Part shown: in pieces, positions 10,758 to 26,168 of the stretch
Position numbering within the stretch: position 1 is the stretch's first letter
How the letters are laid out: every line of letters starts with the position of its first letter
Assembly: GCA_021324885.1 (NCBI GenBank)
Contig: JAJPIF010000011.1
Span: 1-64,000 of the forward strand
Direction: 5' to 3'
Origin: Pseudomonadota bacterium
Lineage (GTDB): Bacteria > Desulfobacterota > Binatia > Binatales > Binataceae
Length of the DNA: 64,000 nucleotides
Translations under genes and position numbers: made by a program
Notes under the pieces: generated by a model
Databases searched by the model: none
What the model saw: the letters and a program-made list of their open reading frames with translations, nothing else
What the model was told of the DNA's origin: nothing

Positions 10758-11204
10758 TCAGTCAAGGCCGGCTGAGACGCTGAGAATTTTGGCTAACCGA
10801 GCGCGGCGCTTGAGCAGATCGGCCAGAGTGTAGCGATCGAGCGTGGCGAAGAAGTTGTCGCACGCCTCGGCGATGACTTCAGCGAGACCGCAGGCATTCG
10901 TGATCACACACCGGTTACGTTCGGCATCGAAGCATTCCACCAGCTTGGGCGGTCCCTCGGTGTAACGCACCACTTCGCCGATGTTGATTTTGGCTGGATC
11001 GCGCGCCAGTTCAATCCCGCCGCCCTTGCCGCGATAGCTCTTGATGTAACCGCCACGCGCCAGGTTGTGGACGACTTTCACCAGATGGTTGCGCGAAATT
11101 CCGTAACGATCGGCAATCTCGGGAACGCTGACCAGCCGATCAGGGTGAACCGCCAGGTACATCAGTACGCGCAGCGAGTAGTCGGTGTAGTAGGTCAGTT
11201 GCAC
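10758..11204 (-). CDS. nsrR: NsrR-type nitric-oxide-sensing Rrf2 repressor
   Basis: Rrf2-family regulator of 148 residues. A winged helix (EIADRYGISRNHLVKVVHNL) is followed by GGGIELARDPAKINIGEVVR and a cysteine cluster Cys91, Cys99, Cys105 (ECFDAERNRC, NACGL). This spacing is characteristic of the Fe-S cluster of NsrR, which loses DNA binding when NO attacks the cluster. The gene starts 6 bases after the hemerythrin-like gene ends, on the same strand, so both are probably one transcript led by the operator at 11815-11837. That would make NsrR autoregulated. IscR is an alternative but has different Cys spacing and is usually longer. Confidence 0.88.
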   Translation of the reverse strand: MQLTYYTDYSLRVLMYLAVHPDRLVSVPEIADRYGISRNHLVKVVHNLARGGYIKSYRGKGGGIELARDPAKINIGEVVRYTEGPPKLVECFDAERNRCVITNACGLAEVIAEACDNFFATLDRYTLADLLKRRARLAKILSVSAGLD

Positions 11205-11210
11205 AGCGAT

Positions 11211-11777
11211 TCAAACCTCGTCGAGAATCCACTTTTGCATGCCATCGAGCATGATGTGAACCTCCGCCGCCGGCAAAATGTGATCCGCCTGCAGGAACAA
11301 CATCCATTCGGCGTCGCCGTGGCCAGGCAAAACTTCCGCAAGCTCAGCGAGACGCCCTTCGACGGTTTCGATTGTCGCTGCGCAGGTGCTGTCATCGCGG
11401 GTGCGGTCGAGCAGGTCGAGAAACTCGCCGATCCGCTGATGTTCTGAACGCAGCTTCCCGATGAGGCCATCGCCCCTCGGTCTCCAGGCGATCTCATCAA
11501 TGAGCGCGAACAGCTGCTCTTCGGCCCCCATCCTGAGTCTCATGGTCCGAACAAATTTTCTGATATTGCGCTTGAGCGCCTCCAGGTTCGAAACTTCGGC
11601 AGTATGGAATGTCTCGTGCGCCAATGCGCACATCCTGACCTGAGAGGCGACCTCGTGCCACAGTTCATCCGTCCGGGTGCGCTCACTGGCGAGGAAATCG
11701 CGCAGCGAACAGGTGGCCCGTTGCGCCCGAGCGTTGTCTGCCGCCGGTGAACTCGCTGATCGTGTTGCGGTGTTCAT
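11211..11777 (-). CDS. hemerythrin-like helical protein (diverged HHE)
   Basis: All-helical protein of 188 residues. The ATG at 11777 has a GGAGG box 9 bases upstream; the frame opens further up, but that stretch contains an NsrR-type operator. Segments with His/Glu at hemerythrin-like spacing (TDELWHEVASQ, GAEEQLFALIDEIA, SEHQRIGEFLDLL, GHGDAEWMLFLQADH) suggest an HHE-related bundle. Several expected iron-ligand His are not clearly in place, so iron binding is uncertain. It is co-transcribed with nsrR and its promoter region carries an NsrR-type operator. Likely role: NO or O2 handling or iron-sulfur repair, in the sense of YtfE-like proteins (inference). Confidence 0.6.
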   Translation of the reverse strand: MNTATRSASSPAADNARAQRATCSLRDFLASERTRTDELWHEVASQVRMCALAHETFHTAEVSNLEALKRNIRKFVRTMRLRMGAEEQLFALIDEIAWRPRGDGLIGKLRSEHQRIGEFLDLLDRTRDDSTCAATIETVEGRLAELAEVLPGHGDAEWMLFLQADHILPAAEVHIMLDGMQKWILDEV

Positions 11778-11814: not shown

Positions 11815-11837
11815 AAGCTGTATCTAGAATACAGATT
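11815..11837. promoter_or_regulatory. NsrR-type operator upstream of the hemerythrin-nsrR operon
   Basis: A 9-5-9 inverted repeat: arm AAGCTGTAT, spacer CTAGA, arm ATACAGATT (one mismatch). It is 38 bases upstream of the hemerythrin-like start codon. Known NsrR sites are AT-rich inverted repeats of the same general form, with TGTAT/ATACA-like half sites. Confidence 0.75.
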
Positions 11838-11910
11838 TATCACCGTCTCGATCAACTCTTCCCGCGGATAACCTTCAGTTCAGGATTGTGCGGACGCCCT
11901 CTTGCACAAA

Positions 11911-11947
11911 GCGTCAGAAGCTGTATATTAAATACAGCTTCTGACGC
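11911..11947. promoter_or_regulatory. 37-base perfect palindromic NsrR-type operator upstream of hemerythrin-DUF2249
   Basis: Left arm GCGTCAGAAGCTGTAT and right arm ATACAGCTTCTGACGC match perfectly over 16 bases around the spacer ATTAA. The central 23 bases (11918-11940) have the same half site as the operator at 11815. It lies 50 bases upstream of the ATG at 11997. An outer GC-rich extension of this length is more than NsrR needs, so the site could also form a hairpin or bind a second regulator. Confidence 0.8.
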
Positions 11948-11996
11948 TGCGGCCCCGATCGAGGAACTGTCCCGGCGCCGGAGAGGAGTGGACACG

Positions 11997-12719
11997 ATGA
12001 ACATCCTCAGCGACGCAATTCGCAAACATCACGTCAGCCTCGCAAAAACGCTGGAGGCGCACGCGCGCGCAGTCGGAGGTGGCGAATCGCAGGTTGAGCG
12101 CGACGCGTTCGTCGGCTTCCTGAAGGGCGACTTGTTGCCTCATGCGCGGGGCGAGGAGCGCCACCTATACGAGTTGGTTGACGCCTTGGTGCGAAAGTAC
12201 GGAAAGCCGACGGCGACGATGATGGTGGACCACGAATTCATCACTGACTACGTCGCCAAAATCGAGGACGTCTCACGGCGGCTTGCCAGCGCGACAGCCG
12301 GCGACCAGCGCGAGCGTCTTTTACACCGGCTGCGAGACCTTGCTCTGCGGCTTGATGCAATAGTGGAGCTTCACCTGGCCAAGGAAGAACGGATTTATCT
12401 GCCGCTCATCGAAAAGCACGTCGATGAAAAGCGCCAGCGCGATGTGCTTGGAGCGATTCACAACTCTTACGATAAGGAGAAGACCATGGCTGACGATCGA
12501 CCACTGGATGTACGCGACGTCGTTCCTCGCGAACGCCACACGATGATCTTCGACACCTTCTCGGGTCTCAAGCCCGGTGAAGCTTTCGTGCTGATCAATG
12601 ATCATGATCCACGTCCGCTCTATTACCAGTTCCAGGCCGAGCATACGGGTCAGTTTTCATGGGAGTACCTCGAACAGGGACCGGAGGTGTGGCGCGTGCG
12701 GATCGGGCGCAGCGCCTGA
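11997..12719 (+). CDS. hemerythrin-DUF2249 fusion protein
   Basis: Two-domain protein of 240 residues. Residues ~1-140 form an HHE bundle with His in AIRKHHVSLAKTLEAHA, LLPHARGEERHLY, MVDHEFITDY and VELHLAKEERIYLPLI, fitting a di-iron site that binds O2 or NO. Residues ~165-240 are a DUF2249 domain (LDVRDVVPRERHTMIFDTF, LKPGEAFVLINDHDPRPLYY). The ATG at 11997 with GGAG upstream is preferred over an earlier frame opening that runs through the operator. DUF2249 proteins often sit in denitrification loci. It leads the rightward half of the NO island and probably is repressed by NsrR. Role: NO scavenging or repair of nitrosylated iron centres (inference). Confidence 0.85.
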   Translation: MNILSDAIRKHHVSLAKTLEAHARAVGGGESQVERDAFVGFLKGDLLPHARGEERHLYELVDALVRKYGKPTATMMVDHEFITDYVAKIEDVSRRLASATAGDQRERLLHRLRDLALRLDAIVELHLAKEERIYLPLIEKHVDEKRQRDVLGAIHNSYDKEKTMADDRPLDVRDVVPRERHTMIFDTFSGLKPGEAFVLINDHDPRPLYYQFQAEHTGQFSWEYLEQGPEVWRVRIGRSA

Positions 12720-12764: not shown

Positions 12765-13067
12765 ATGGTCACTGAAAAGGACATCCTGCGGATTTTGCGC
12801 GCAGTCAGGGATCCGGAAGTCGGGGTAAACATCGTCGACCTTGGACTGATCTACAGCACCGAGGTTGACGGCGAAAAGGTGCGCATCGTGATGACGATAA
12901 CGACGCCAGCGTGTCCGATGCACTCGTATCTTACTGAAGAGGTACGCGAGGCGATCCTGAGTGGGAACGAAGAAGTGGAAACCGTGGACGTTGAGCTGGT
13001 TTGGGATCCGCCATGGTCCCCGCAGATGATTTCTGAAGAGGGAAGACGGCAACTCGGCTGGCAATAG
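12765..13067 (+). CDS. MIP18/PaaD-SufT family iron-sulfur assembly factor (DUF59)
   Basis: A 100-residue MIP18-family protein: EKDILRILRAVRDPEVGVNI, VDLGLIY, and MTITTPACPMHSYLTEEVR with the conserved Cys, ending WDPPWSPQMISEEGRRQLG. Relatives (SufT, PaaD, CIA2) help mature Fe-S or non-heme iron proteins. It lies 45 bases after the hemerythrin-DUF2249 gene, in the same direction. Such DUF59-DUF2249 pairing in NO loci points to repair or loading of iron sites (inference). Confidence 0.9.
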   Translation: MVTEKDILRILRAVRDPEVGVNIVDLGLIYSTEVDGEKVRIVMTITTPACPMHSYLTEEVREAILSGNEEVETVDVELVWDPPWSPQMISEEGRRQLGWQ

Positions 13068-13088: not shown

Positions 13089-13958
13089 ATGAAACTCGTA
13101 GCGCAATGGCTTTCAGACCTGCGCCGAAATTATACCGACGAACCGCTCATCAGCGACGTGCGTGTCGGAGTGTTCTACACGGCGGTTGAAATTTCGACCG
13201 GCCACGTGGGCGTGGCTTTCACTCCGCGCGATTTGAGCGACACCGTGTGCTGTCCGAAGACGGCCGCAGGGGCGCCGCCAGCGGGCAGGCTTATCGGCGT
13301 CGAGGCCTGGGAGCTGGCGGAGTACGCGCTTTCACCGAGCGCGCTCAGGCGGGCGGCGGGCATCGCCACGCTCAACGCGCTGTGCGCCGCGGCTGCCGAG
13401 CGACATGGCCTATCGGAGGGGACGTTACACGAAAACCTTGACGCATTGGACGCGGCTTCGGTCGCAGCCGACGACCGGGTTGTGATGGTCGGCGCATTCG
13501 TCCCGTTCATAAAGCGACTTAAGGGGCGCGTAGCCAGCCTGAGCGTGATTGACAAGCATCGTGAGGCGCTCAAGCCCGAAGAGCAGGCTCTATGGATGCC
13601 CCCACAGCGCGCTTCGGAAGCGCTCAAGAATGCAAGTGTCGTGGTCTTGTCCGGTTCAGTCCTGGTAGAGGGAGGAATCGAAGAACTGCTGGAAGTTTCG
13701 GGCTCCGCGCGTGTGCGCGTAATGGCGGGACCGACGACTCCATTATGGCCGCGGCCATTTTTCGACTGCGGCATCGCCGTCCTCGGCGGTATCCGGGTTC
13801 TCCACGGCAGGGATCTGCTCACAATTGCAGGGCAGGGCGGTTCGGGCTATCTGTTTGAACGGGCCGCAAATAAAGCCTGCCTGCTTTGCCCTGGGCCGAC
13901 GCTGTGCGCCACGCAACCGCGTGAGTCTCCCCGAAGGAGAGCAACATGCCTTGGGTAA
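13089..13958 (+). CDS. DUF364 (DUF4213/Rossmann-like) protein, putative metal or cofactor handling
   Basis: 289 residues. The N-terminal part (DVRVGVFYTAVEISTGHVGVAF) resembles the DUF4213 enolase-N-like domain and the C-terminal part (VVMVGAFVPFIKRLKGR, ASVVVLSGSVLVEGGIEELL) the Rossmann-like DUF364 domain, a family tentatively linked to heavy-metal chelation. A typical GTLHENL... DAAS linker is present. The C-terminus has an unusual Cys-rich tail (KACLLCPGPTLC) before a basic end that overlaps the ferredoxin gene by 13 bases. RBS GGAGG before the ATG. Co-transcribed with MIP18 and ferredoxin; a metal-insertion role is inference. Confidence 0.72.
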   Translation: MKLVAQWLSDLRRNYTDEPLISDVRVGVFYTAVEISTGHVGVAFTPRDLSDTVCCPKTAAGAPPAGRLIGVEAWELAEYALSPSALRRAAGIATLNALCAAAAERHGLSEGTLHENLDALDAASVAADDRVVMVGAFVPFIKRLKGRVASLSVIDKHREALKPEEQALWMPPQRASEALKNASVVVLSGSVLVEGGIEELLEVSGSARVRVMAGPTTPLWPRPFFDCGIAVLGGIRVLHGRDLLTIAGQGGSGYLFERAANKACLLCPGPTLCATQPRESPRRRATCLG

Positions 13959-14305
13959 TAACGAGACTCTGCATTGATTGTCTCGATACCGGATGCGTCA
14001 GCGTCTGTCCGGTTGATTGCATCTACGAACCACTTGAGCCCGGCAAGGATGGGTTCCCCAATCAGCTCTATATAAATCCAGACGAATGCATCGATTGCGG
14101 CGCCTGCGAGCCGGAGTGTCCATGGCAGGCGATTTACGAGGAGCCGGCCGTACCTGAGCTTTTTACGGATGATGTTGCGCTGAACGCGAAGACGGTCGAA
14201 ACACCTGAACAGTTTCGCGTCAAGAAATACGAGGAAAAGCCGAGTCCCACCCCGGATCAGGTCGCCGAAAACAAGCGCAAGTGGGGACTCGACTCAGATT
14301 CGTGA
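13946..14305 (+). CDS. 4Fe-4S/7Fe-type ferredoxin
   Basis: 119-residue ferredoxin. The first cluster region is MPWVITRLCIDCLDTGCVSVCPVDCIY and the second is PDECIDCGACEPECPWQAIY, so two cubane-type clusters (or one 3Fe and one 4Fe) are predicted. A 50-residue C-terminal extension follows, ending RKWGLDSDS, as in bacterial seven/eight-iron ferredoxins. GGAG precedes the ATG. It overlaps the DUF364 gene and is likely its electron donor or partner. Confidence 0.92.
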   Translation: MPWVITRLCIDCLDTGCVSVCPVDCIYEPLEPGKDGFPNQLYINPDECIDCGACEPECPWQAIYEEPAVPELFTDDVALNAKTVETPEQFRVKKYEEKPSPTPDQVAENKRKWGLDSDS

Positions 14306-14359: not shown

Positions 14360-14662
14360 ATGAACACGTATGTCATGCTCACCAGACTTTTGCCCGGCGC
14401 TGTGGACACGCCGGCGGCGGTCGAAAACCTCAATCGCGAGGTCAACGAGCGGATCAAGCGGGAATGCCCGAGCGTCAGATGGCTCGGCAACTACGCAATT
14501 TCCGGTCCTGGCGACTACGTTGACATCTTCGAGGCTTCTGACGCGGACACGGCGACCAAAGTCGCGCTGCTGATTCGCTCCTTTGGCCGCGCGACCGCCG
14601 AACTCTGGCCCGCCACGCCGTGGGACCGATTCCTGGATATTGCCAGGCACCTGAAAAGCTAG
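14360..14662 (+). CDS. GYD-domain protein
   Basis: 100-residue ferredoxin-fold GYD protein: MNTYVMLTRLLPGAVDTP, then VRWLGNYAISGPGDYVDIFEA with the GxYD-like core, and a FGRATAELWPATPWDRFLDI end. A strong AGGAGGAG box lies 8 bases upstream. Function of the family is not settled; it is often beside stress and denitrification genes. Located 54 bases after the ferredoxin gene, in line with the island. Confidence 0.85.
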   Translation: MNTYVMLTRLLPGAVDTPAAVENLNREVNERIKRECPSVRWLGNYAISGPGDYVDIFEASDADTATKVALLIRSFGRATAELWPATPWDRFLDIARHLKS

Positions 14663-14704: not shown

Positions 14705-15166
14705 ATGATCGAACACGGCCACGAATGGTTATGCCAGCAGATTGTTGAGAACGCCAGTGACGCGATCATTTTCGCTGATGCTGACGGAGTGGTGCGGTTG
14801 TGGAATGGCGGCGCGGAAAGGATTTTCGGCTTTCGCGCCGACGAGATGGTGGGCAAGTCGATGGACCCGATTATTCCCGAAAATCTGCGCCAGCGGCATT
14901 GGGAAGGCTACGACCAGACCATGAAAACCGGGCGCACCCAGTACAGCCGAAATCTGTTGGCCGTGCCGGCGCTGCGCAAGGACGGAACCCGGATCTCCAT
15001 CGAGTTCACCATCGCCCTGATCCGCGATGTGAACGGCAAGCTGTTGGGCCCGGCCGCGATCCTGCGCGACGTGACCGCCCGATGGAATCAGGACAAGCAG
15101 CTTCGCGCACGGCTGACCACCCTTGAAGCTCAGGTGAAAAAGCTCAACGCAGAATCGGCTTCATAA
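14705..15166 (+). CDS. single PAS-domain sensor protein
   Basis: 153 residues, essentially one PAS domain: IVENASDAIIFADADGVVRL, WNGGAERIFGFRADEMVG and the PAC part LRKDGTRISIEFTIALIRD. A short C-terminal coiled coil (QLRARLTTLEAQVKKL) follows, with no kinase, GGDEF or HTH output. It may sense redox or a ligand and act by protein contact. The small stand-alone form close to NO genes is common. Preceded by GGAGG. Confidence 0.88.
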   Translation: MIEHGHEWLCQQIVENASDAIIFADADGVVRLWNGGAERIFGFRADEMVGKSMDPIIPENLRQRHWEGYDQTMKTGRTQYSRNLLAVPALRKDGTRISIEFTIALIRDVNGKLLGPAAILRDVTARWNQDKQLRARLTTLEAQVKKLNAESAS

Positions 15167-15267: not shown

Positions 15268-16458
15268 ATGGAGTCGGCGGGTACAGCGAAAACGTCTGTG
15301 AGCGAGAGGGGAAGCGCGGCACGTCCGGCGGCGCGGCCCACGATGGATTACGTCCGGCCGCCACTGCTGGCCTTGTCAATGCTTGCGCTGCTGGCCGCGC
15401 TATGGGCGGGACTCCTGCGATTTGGGTGGGGCCTGCCGGCTATTCAACCCGGGCTCTACGTAGGACACGGACCCCTGATGGTTTGCGGCTTCCTTGGCAC
15501 GCTGATCAGCCTCGAACGCGCTGTGGCTCTCGGTGAAGGCTGGAGTTACGCGGCTCCCGTGCTTAGCGGAGCAGGCGCGTTGGCGCTGATTGTTGGCATT
15601 CCCGATCCAATCGGGCCCGTTCTGATTACCCTGGGAAGCCTGGGACTGATCGCGAACTTTGCCGCGATCCTGCACCGTCAGGCTGCATTGTTCACGATCA
15701 CGATGGCGCTCGGTGCGGTTGCGTGGTTCGTTGGCAACTGTATCTGGCTCGCCGGGATACCGATCATCGAGATGTTCTTTTGGTGGACGGCGTTTCTGGT
15801 GCTCACGATCGTGGGAGAGCGGCTCGAGCTGAGCCGCCTCACCGGGCTGGCTGAAGAAAACCGGCGGTCATTTGTATTGAGTCTGGCTCCGTTCATCGGC
15901 GGACTTGTTATCGCGCGCCAGATTCCGGCTGCGGGGCTTCGACTTGCGGGACTCGGAATGCTCGCGATGGCGATTTGGCTCGCGAAATACGATCTGGCTC
16001 GCAGGACCGTAAAGCACGAAGGGCTCACGCGCTTCATCGCGGTCAATCTGCTCGCCGGATATTTCTGGCTCGGGGTTGGCGGAGTTGCATGGCTTTGGTT
16101 CGGCGAAGACCTGACGACCTTCCATTACGACATCATGCTTCACGCGGTGTTTCTGGGCTTTGTATTCTCGATGATCTTCGCCCACGCGCCGGTAATCTTT
16201 CCCTCCGTGCTCCAGCGGCCCCTGCCTTACAGGCGCGCGTTCTATGTTCACTCGGTTTTTCTGCACCTGTCCCTGGCGCTGCGGATCGGAGGCGATCTTT
16301 GTGGCTGGTATCCAGGTTACCAATGGGGCGGACTGCTCAACGTGCTGGCCGTGTTGGTGTTTGTCGCCAATACCGCACGCGCAATCGCGACGGCACGGTC
16401 CAGACGGGAGCGGCGAGCAAGCGCAACGGCAGCGGCGATGCAGGGTCGGCCGGGTTAG
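15268..16458 (+). CDS. NnrS-like polytopic membrane protein
   Basis: About 11-12 hydrophobic segments in 396 residues. Notable polar/His motifs in membrane context: YVGHGPLMVCGFLGTLISLE, FHYDIMLHAVFLGFVFSMIFAHAPVIFP and YVHSVFLHLSLALRIGGDL. Such conserved intramembrane His and length resemble the NnrS family, heme/copper membrane proteins linked to NO stress, but the match is by pattern only. A Met at 15343, just before the first helix, is an alternative start. It is followed by two small membrane protein genes, which overlap each other and may form a complex with it. Confidence 0.55.
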   Translation: MESAGTAKTSVSERGSAARPAARPTMDYVRPPLLALSMLALLAALWAGLLRFGWGLPAIQPGLYVGHGPLMVCGFLGTLISLERAVALGEGWSYAAPVLSGAGALALIVGIPDPIGPVLITLGSLGLIANFAAILHRQAALFTITMALGAVAWFVGNCIWLAGIPIIEMFFWWTAFLVLTIVGERLELSRLTGLAEENRRSFVLSLAPFIGGLVIARQIPAAGLRLAGLGMLAMAIWLAKYDLARRTVKHEGLTRFIAVNLLAGYFWLGVGGVAWLWFGEDLTTFHYDIMLHAVFLGFVFSMIFAHAPVIFPSVLQRPLPYRRAFYVHSVFLHLSLALRIGGDLCGWYPGYQWGGLLNVLAVLVFVANTARAIATARSRRERRASATAAAMQGRPG

Positions 16459-25055: not shown

Positions 25056-26168
25056 ATGATGCGCTCTAACATCTCGCGTCGGGAACTGCTTCGCCTACTG
25101 GGAACGGGGGCGGCGTTGTTCGGAATGGATACGCGCCGCGCCTTTGCGGTGTCCGAAACTGAATCCCGCGGCTCAATCGCGTCCACCGCAGCCGCGAGCG
25201 CGCATGAGCCCAGCCGCGTCGTGGCCGATCCTACCGACATTCCGCCTCCCATCAAGCGCGGCCATCCGATCCATCACGAGGTTGCGCTCGAAGCGCTGGA
25301 AGTCGAGGGCGAGATTGAGCCTGGTGCCAAATACGACTACATGACGTTTAACGGTAAAGTGCCCGGACCGATGCTGCGGGTACGGCGTGGCGACACCGTC
25401 ACATTGACTCTGCACAACAATATCCGCAGCACCACCTGGCATTCGATCGATCTGCATGCGGTGTACGGTCCAGGCGGAGGTGCAGACATTTTGAAGGTCT
25501 TGCCCGGCAAAGCTAAAAGCGTGACCTTCAAAGCCGTGTTCCCTGGCGCCTTCATATATCACTGTGCCGTGCCGGGTGAGATGGACGTGCACATAGCTCG
25601 CGGGATGTTCGGCATGATCGTGGTCGAACCGGAGCAGGGGCTGCCCCATGTCGACCGCGAGTTCTACCTCGGCCAGAATGAAACGTACACCAAGCAGTTG
25701 CCGGGCACTCCGGGGCCGCGCGACTTTGATTCCGATCGCCTGCTGCTCGAACAGGCGACCTACGTGGTTTTCAACGGCGCATATAACGCTCTGACCGCCG
25801 GGCGCTTCGGCGCGATGAAGGCCAAGGTCGGCGAGACCGTGCGGGTCTTCATGGTCAACGGCGGACCAAACCTGCTCTCGAGCCTTCATCCGATCGGCAA
25901 CATCTGGTCGCGAGCCTGGTTCATGGGCGCGTTCGCCACGCCGCCGATGCGCTTTGTACAGAGCCTGCCGGTGCCGCCGGGAAGCGCGATCGTCGCCGAT
26001 ATGGAACTGCCGGTGCCGCAAACGATCAGGATCGTGGATCACGCCATGACCCGGGCGATGAACAAGGGCGTGATGGCGGAGATCGAAGTCGCGGGTAAGG
26101 AAAATCCGGGAATCTTCAATGCAAACCCCCTGAAGTCCCCATCGACCGGACCGCGGCAGCGGGGGTAG
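25056..26168 (+). CDS. nirK: copper-containing nitrite reductase NirK
   Basis: 370 residues with a Tat signal (SRRELLRLLGTGAALFG). Two cupredoxin domains. Type-1 copper ligands: His129, Cys170, His179, Met184; type-2 copper ligands: His134, His169 and His329. Catalytic Asp132 (SIDLHA) and His278 (SSLHPIGNIW) are kept. All essential residues of NO-forming nitrite reductase are present, so it should reduce nitrite to NO in the periplasm. Two ATGs at 25056 and 25059 follow a GGGGAGGA box; the second has better spacing. The cupredoxin and NDH-2 genes lie just upstream. No NO reductase gene is in the window, so downstream NO fate is unclear. Confidence 0.95.
   Translation: MMRSNISRRELLRLLGTGAALFGMDTRRAFAVSETESRGSIASTAAASAHEPSRVVADPTDIPPPIKRGHPIHHEVALEALEVEGEIEPGAKYDYMTFNGKVPGPMLRVRRGDTVTLTLHNNIRSTTWHSIDLHAVYGPGGGADILKVLPGKAKSVTFKAVFPGAFIYHCAVPGEMDVHIARGMFGMIVVEPEQGLPHVDREFYLGQNETYTKQLPGTPGPRDFDSDRLLLEQATYVVFNGAYNALTAGRFGAMKAKVGETVRVFMVNGGPNLLSSLHPIGNIWSRAWFMGAFATPPMRFVQSLPVPPGSAIVADMELPVPQTIRIVDHAMTRAMNKGVMAEIEVAGKENPGIFNANPLKSPSTGPRQRG

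Follow-up and report, generated by a model that had tools for sequence, protein, structure and literature searches.

Two predicted NsrR-type operators between divergent hemerythrin operons of Candidatus Binataceae, one of them within a perfect 39-base palindrome

The 64-kb stretch of DNA analysed here (the window) contains two predicted divergent operons. One comprises a hemerythrin gene and the gene of a putative nitric oxide (NO)-sensing Rrf2 regulator, the other is headed by a gene for a hemerythrin-DUF2249 protein (HemDUF2249). The 219-bp gap between the two divergent start codons contains two similar inverted repeats, one of which forms the core of a long palindrome. Why does this region carry two operator-like sites, and what do the arms of the palindrome contribute? 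We consider it probable that two NsrR-like operators control two divergent promoters and release them in response to NO, that a formerly shared switch was split in this lineage, and that the outer palindrome arms are private to it. The features on which this reading is based are listed in Table 1.

Table 1 Features of the divergent locus and its surroundings. Positions refer to the 64-kb window; promoter elements, operators and the transcription start are predictions.
Feature	Position	Strand	Remarks
NsrR-like Rrf2 regulator	10758..11204	-	Pfam Rrf2 E=2.3e-41; best NCBIfam model NsrR, 141.9 bits
Hemerythrin, first gene of nsrR operon	11211..11777	-	Pfam Hemerythrin E=5.3e-8; 6 bp before nsrR
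Site 1, putative NsrR-type operator of left operon	11815..11837		Pattern scan, 11/14 consensus letters
Predicted -10 TATTCT of left promoter, inside site 1	11826..11831	-	Spacer 18
Predicted -35 TTGATC of left promoter	11850..11855	-	12 bases from operator, like most relatives' mirrored TTGAC
Weak predicted -35 TTGCAC of right promoter	11902..11907	+	Occupies the place of the relatives' TTGAC
Perfect 17-5-17 palindrome	11910..11948		Outer 8 bp per arm not common to the relatives examined
Site 2, putative NsrR-type operator of right operon	11918..11940		Pattern scan, 12/14 consensus letters
Predicted -10 TATATT of right promoter, inside site 2	11924..11929	+	Spacer 16; relatives read TATATT there, 7/10
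Predicted transcription start, inside right arm	11936	+	Inferred, 7 nt after -10
Hemerythrin-DUF2249 (HemDUF2249), first gene of right operon	11997..12719	+	DUF2249 E=2e-32, Hemerythrin E=1.6e-9
SufT/PaaD-like Fe-S assembly protein	12765..13067	+	PF01883 E=4.1e-19
DUF4213/DUF364 protein	13089..13958	+	Pfam
Ferredoxin, FdxA-like	13946..14305	+	Pfam / NCBIfam; below curated cut-off
GYD-domain protein	14360..14662	+	Pfam
PAS-domain protein	14705..15166	+	Pfam
12-helix membrane protein	15268..16458	+	Heme-copper-oxidase fold in model; no Pfam/NCBIfam family
Copper nitrite reductase nirK, context outside the switch	25056..26168	+	TIGR02376 328.8 bits, cut-off 296.3

Two rare sites and an NsrR-like regulator

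A repeat search of the 64-kb window identified AAGCTGTATCTAGAATACAGATT (site 1, 11815-11837), a 9-5-9 inverted repeat, and AAGCTGTATATTAAATACAGCTT (site 2, 11918-11940), the 9-5-9 core of a longer palindrome. The sites are 83% identical and their centres lie 103 bp apart. Allowing up to three mismatches, the 23-base pattern was found twice in the window compared to 0.01 matches expected from shuffled windows. In the genome to which the window belongs (4,533,256 bases or 4.53 Mb on 30 contigs, 96% complete) it occurred at sites 1 and 2 only, and not in the control. A wider pattern added four places in the genome, each with three mismatches (control: one match per strand). Each of these places overlaps with stop-to-stop frames of 150 or more codons, in the case of L057 at the frame ends only, and is counted as a chance match.

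The NsrR operator consensus is gATGyAT-N5-ATrCATc; NsrR controls targets of the NO response, and nsrR is often located beside them (Rodionov 2005, PMC1274295). Site 2 matches 12 and site 1 11 of the 14 consensus letters. With a position matrix, the two best sites of the window scored 40.0 and 32.3 and the third-best 6.6, whereby the scores of this matrix are circular for the 14 sites used for training, to which both belong. Taken together, these results agree with a first-pass annotation of the sequence, which had placed site 1 at the same coordinates, had called both sites NsrR-type operators and had described an nsrR-hemerythrin operon and a hemerythrin-DUF2249 gene around them. Pfam supports the gene calls, with an Rrf2 regulator, a hemerythrin and a hemerythrin-DUF2249 protein. 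The genome-wide scan that it had proposed revealed a motif that is not scattered away from NO genes, since both of its places are at this locus.

The regulator is, based on its sequence, an NsrR-like Rrf2 protein. NsrR was the best-ranking NCBIfam model (141.9 bits), followed by RirA with 127.2 bits, and the best match in the PDB was the NsrR structure 5n07 (E=1.6e-18). As the NCBIfam score is below the curated NsrR cut-off of 182, we use the term NsrR-like and do not regard the protein as a certain member. The cluster ligands of ScNsrR are Cys93, Cys99, Cys105 and Asp8 (PMC9338935). In an alignment of 14 orthologues, which includes the protein of the window and leaves out L072, the residues C91, C99, C105 and D8 are invariant, although the cysteine spacing is C-X7-C-X5-C in the window compared to C-X5-C-X5-C in ScNsrR. 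All three cysteines are present in 19 of 21 relative loci compared; the exceptions are L078, which is partial, and L072. In L072 (14942-15381) the orthologue is encoded in two overlapping pieces and the first cluster cysteine is missing, while the operator and promoter alongside are intact.

An Rrf2 protein that senses another signal than NO, such as the redox state (like RsrR) or iron (like RirA), seems unlikely. The missed NsrR cut-off and the close RirA score would be compatible with it, as would the example of Streptomyces venezuelae RsrR, a protein with a redox-active [2Fe-2S] cluster and 630 bound places that was investigated as a putative NsrR and likewise possesses two sites separating its own gene from a divergent gene (PMC5015018). 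However, NsrR is the top match in both NCBIfam and the PDB, the operator letters fit the NsrR consensus including its N5 spacing, and NO-linked genes are located nearby. Moreover, the RsrR sites described are 11-3-11 repeats separated by one base pair, whereas those of the window are 9-5-9 repeats with centres 103 bp apart, and the 11-3-11 form was not found in them. We therefore retain the NsrR-like assignment.

Operators and promoter geometry in related genomes

We searched 41 genomes at the order level, all of which belong to the family of the window, placed as Candidatus Binataceae by means of one named relative. A close NsrR (E<=1e-25) was detected in 16 and HemDUF2249 (E<=1e-15) in 14 of them, and all of the latter are within the 16 NsrR genomes (Fisher p=3.4e-9, kinship ignored). 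Using a pattern derived from the window alone (at least 14 of 18 letters, within 1.5 kb), a site was found near 18 of 22 NsrR orthologues (15 related genomes) versus none of nine loci of Rrf2 paralogues (Fisher p=3.5e-5, kinship ignored). L019, L021, L023 and L034 are the four orthologue loci without a site. The relatives' operators fit 11-14 of the 14 consensus letters (nine strong sites).

Four HemDUF2249 stretches had no nsrR in the fetched DNA. An operator lies upstream in three of these (L080, L081 and L082, all outside the matrix training set) and is absent in the more distant L083. Among the best 80 named HemDUF2249 loci, nine (56-78% identity) have an upstream site with a matrix score of at least 23, and at least six of the nine originate from genomes already searched. 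The other 71, with at most 51% identity over the protein or with the DUF2249 domain alone, showed no site above 9.9; in control windows of the same loci the 99% level was 9.9 and the largest score 30.0. Of ten NsrR-like matches in other families of the class, eight were available as loci (L178-L185), and one of these contained a weak site (13.7).

Two further observations concern variants of these genes. NsrR paralogues in two genomes are accompanied by paired, weaker operator-like sites with a variant half site, which are exactly 75 bases apart and represent a further doubled arrangement (L188 at 1981 and 2056; L076 at 8395 and 8470). In L065 (1272-1975), HemDUF2249 extends over two frames with a stop within the first, representing a broken gene or a sequencing error.

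For the promoter geometry we compared ten divergent nsrR/HemDUF2249 loci from nine relatives; the contig ends L060 and L079 were joined based on the same site and flanks and counted once. In all ten, one operator is situated between the two operons. On the HemDUF2249 side, TTGAC is found exactly 10 bases from the operator in 10/10 loci. A mirrored TTGAC occurs on the opposite side in seven loci, at a distance of 12-13 bases, and the remaining three have four of the five letters there at 11-12 bases. At random places in the same loci, five of five letters were matched in 0.8% and four of five in 11.5%. In seven of the ten loci the predicted -10 element of HemDUF2249, located at operator positions 7-12, has the sequence TATATT; the reverse -10 allows no unique assignment. 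Invariant alignment columns are restricted to the -35 element, the operator, the mirrored GTCAA, one A of the ribosome site and the start codon. As TTGAC or a near-copy is present on both sides and the predicted -10 lies within the operator, a single operator seems to cover a bidirectional promoter in these relatives.

This layout is not universal. In L066, L070, L071, L077 and L080, neither side carries TTGAC at the distances tested. In L081 and L082 it is restricted to the HemDUF2249 side, L082 having four of five letters at 9 bases opposite. The operator of L066 separates nsrR from a divergently oriented PAS gene. A difference in gene content was also noted: in both of the relatives that were scanned, a DUF2249-hemerythrin fusion is encoded by the gene separating nsrR from the operator (L061 3771-4511; L060 14036-14779), and the hemerythrin in this position in the window is without DUF2249.

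In the window, promoter-like elements are predicted separately for each site (Table 1), and a consensus promoter scan yielded none above threshold. Site 2 does not qualify as a bidirectional promoter, its mirrored -35 being absent (best match two of five letters). We infer the following mechanism. A repressor dimer with an Fe-S cluster would cover the -10 element at each promoter. Occupancy of site 1 would block the hemerythrin-nsrR operon and lead to autoregulation, and occupancy of site 2 would block the operon headed by HemDUF2249. NO would damage the Fe-S cluster, the repressor would leave the DNA and both operons would be switched on. Such NO-linked, autoregulated repression appears well supported at the level of sequence.

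Two congeners, G001 and G002, have one operator each at this locus; in G002, a separate NsrR paralogue is accompanied by two weaker sites. Because both congeners have one operator, parsimony suggests that the single-operator state is probably the older one. The ancestral state of the family would have been a single operator with both -10 regions inside and TTGAC on either side, and the simplest reading is that this shared promoter was split in the lineage of the window, giving two operator-promoter units with centres 103 bp apart. Since the relatives show a single operator and a symmetric promoter, it is the doubled arrangement that is unusual. The likeness of the flanks of sites 1 and 2 bears on whether a duplication covered more than the operator alone; among five flank comparisons, that of the two right flanks was the only one to exceed shuffled sequences, of which 8/500 reached the score (uncorrected).

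The long palindrome around site 2

According to the repeat search, site 2 is embedded in a perfect 17-5-17 palindrome of 39 bases (11910-11948). The first-pass annotation had described a perfect 16-5-16 palindrome at 11911-11947, of which the perfection holds and the extent had to be corrected. No other perfect inverted repeat in the 64-kb window has arms of at least 11 bases (loops of up to 10 allowed), and 413 kb of DNA from relatives contained arms of 12 three times, arms of 13 once and none longer. Under independence, p is ~2e-5 for the eight matched pairs that the palindrome adds to the 23-mer. Over the first ten flank positions of 17 operators of relatives, 50/170 were paired (0.294) versus ~0.26 expected, which argues against arm extension as a family trait. 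Symmetric flanks may nevertheless not be wholly private to the window, since eight of ten flank positions are paired at the operator of the congener locus L059. Based on this comparison, the additional 8 bp on either side of site 2 are most likely private and outside NsrR recognition. It is known that template switching can turn imperfect inverted repeats into repeats with perfect arms (PMC7202029, PMC8794818), and perfection of the arms by this process at an existing inverted repeat would be their likeliest origin.

It had previously been suggested that the arms could be used by another regulator or as an RNA hairpin, and both ideas are weakened by our results. Binding of the outer arms GCGTCAG...CTGACGC by a second regulator is quite improbable: while a perfect 8-bp extension is hardly expected by chance (~2e-5), the genome contains a single copy of GCGTCAG-N(10-39)-CTGACGC, with one control match per strand, and the outer motif is absent from the aligned flanks of relatives, where pairing is 0.294 versus 0.26.

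That the palindrome serves as a hairpin within the 5' leader of the HemDUF2249 mRNA is, in our view, very improbable. For RNA of the region 11905-11997, a folding energy of -42.3 kcal/mol (z -5.1) was calculated, and a TTGAGA on the + strand 9 bases before site 1 could provide a weak rightward start from which the whole palindrome would be transcribed. However, the promoter position conserved in the relatives places the start at about 11936, inside the right arm, and an RNA beginning there would be without the stem. In addition, the arms are not conserved, no Rfam family matched up to E=1 and the + strand has no T-run after the palindrome. An intrinsic terminator was rejected as well, as there is no + strand T-run after 11948 and the sole candidate of the scan is on the minus strand with a 5-pair stem.

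An assembly artefact as the source of the palindrome is hardly credible. The sequence originates from one assembly of the species and the arms are not common to the relatives, but the palindrome is centred on a conserved operator, and no second palindrome of this kind is present in the window. A repeat of 39 bases is also shorter than a usual sequencing read, which counts against an error of this type. It may be speculated, as a tentative and rather doubtful idea, that the split freed the two NO-response operons from competition for RNA polymerase and that the later 39-base palindrome tightens or alters repression.

NO-linked context and relation to known switches

The copper nitrite reductase gene nirK is located 13 kb from the operators in the 64-kb window, and a gene on another contig encodes COX1 and NorB cytochrome-c-like domains (PF22085 E=9.7e-52). 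The presence of nirK and a NorB-type gene indicates that the organism plausibly makes and removes NO. No operator was detected near the norB-type gene (675 bp upstream scanned) or before nirK (third-best site of the window only 6.6), and hence the regulon may consist of this single locus. The earlier reading had predicted NO-controlled, autoregulated expression; NO-linked genes and an operator position suited to autoregulation are both seen in the sequence. Between 20531 and 26168, genes for an AhpD-like protein, a molybdopterin oxidoreductase with cytochrome b561, an FAD oxidoreductase and a plastocyanin-like protein precede nirK.

The 12-helix protein (15268-16458) in the predicted operon behind site 2 had no Pfam or NCBIfam match at E<=1, and 10/10 scanned relatives had none below E=0.1. 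Its predicted fold (pLDDT 76.5) is similar to heme-copper oxidases and NO reductases and matched a cbb3 oxidase in Foldseek (E=6.6e-5). Structural comparison yielded Z 31.2 with an rmsd of 3.3 over 353 residues for a cbb3 subunit and Z 28.4 with an rmsd of 3.6 over 348 residues for an NO reductase. Histidines at positions 67, 292, 306 and 328 are invariant. Judged from the model, the protein possibly represents an undescribed NO-handling family. An identity as NnrS was rejected, as Pfam NnrS gave no match at E<=1.

Paired NsrR-type sites in divergent regions are already known from Neisseria and Streptomyces venezuelae. The divergent norB-aniA(nirK) region of Neisseria contains two NsrR motifs in one intergenic region, as in the window (PMC1274295, PMC10187123); the descriptions add FNR and NarP sites there, whereas the window has one site in a 39-base palindrome and relatives with single sites. 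The locus resembles published NsrR regulons in its consensus-type operators and in an nsrR gene adjoining its targets, but the targets named for those regulons include hmp, hcp and dnrN, while the main target here would be the HemDUF2249 operon. Furthermore, the family is uncultured, and the half sites in the window read AAGCTG, unlike the published consensus. Hemerythrin-like ric genes are described as repressed by NsrR (PMC9268430), and we found no work in the open-licence literature that combines NsrR, hemerythrin and DUF2249. In Escherichia coli bidirectional promoters, overlapping -10 regions drive divergent transcripts, and the 2026 study states that control of such promoters was previously unknown (PMC12825309). 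Overlapping -10 regions are also predicted for the relatives, which differ in adding a repressor operator that coincides with the shared -10 region, and the promoters in the window are separate. A combined query for NsrR, repressor operators and bidirectional promoters matched only work on Fur in the open-licence literature, as far as its accessible text goes. What appears new is the single operator on an apparently bidirectional promoter in the relatives compared to two operators in the window.

Overall, the finding is sound and for the most part ordinary. What is unusual is that a shared promoter was apparently split and that the palindrome is exceptionally perfect. The finding assigns a putative NsrR-type NO switch to an uncultured family and connects this switch with a hemerythrin-DUF2249 operon. 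With one shared operator in some members and two separate operators in the window, the family would offer a natural pair for studying what is lost and gained by sharing a promoter.
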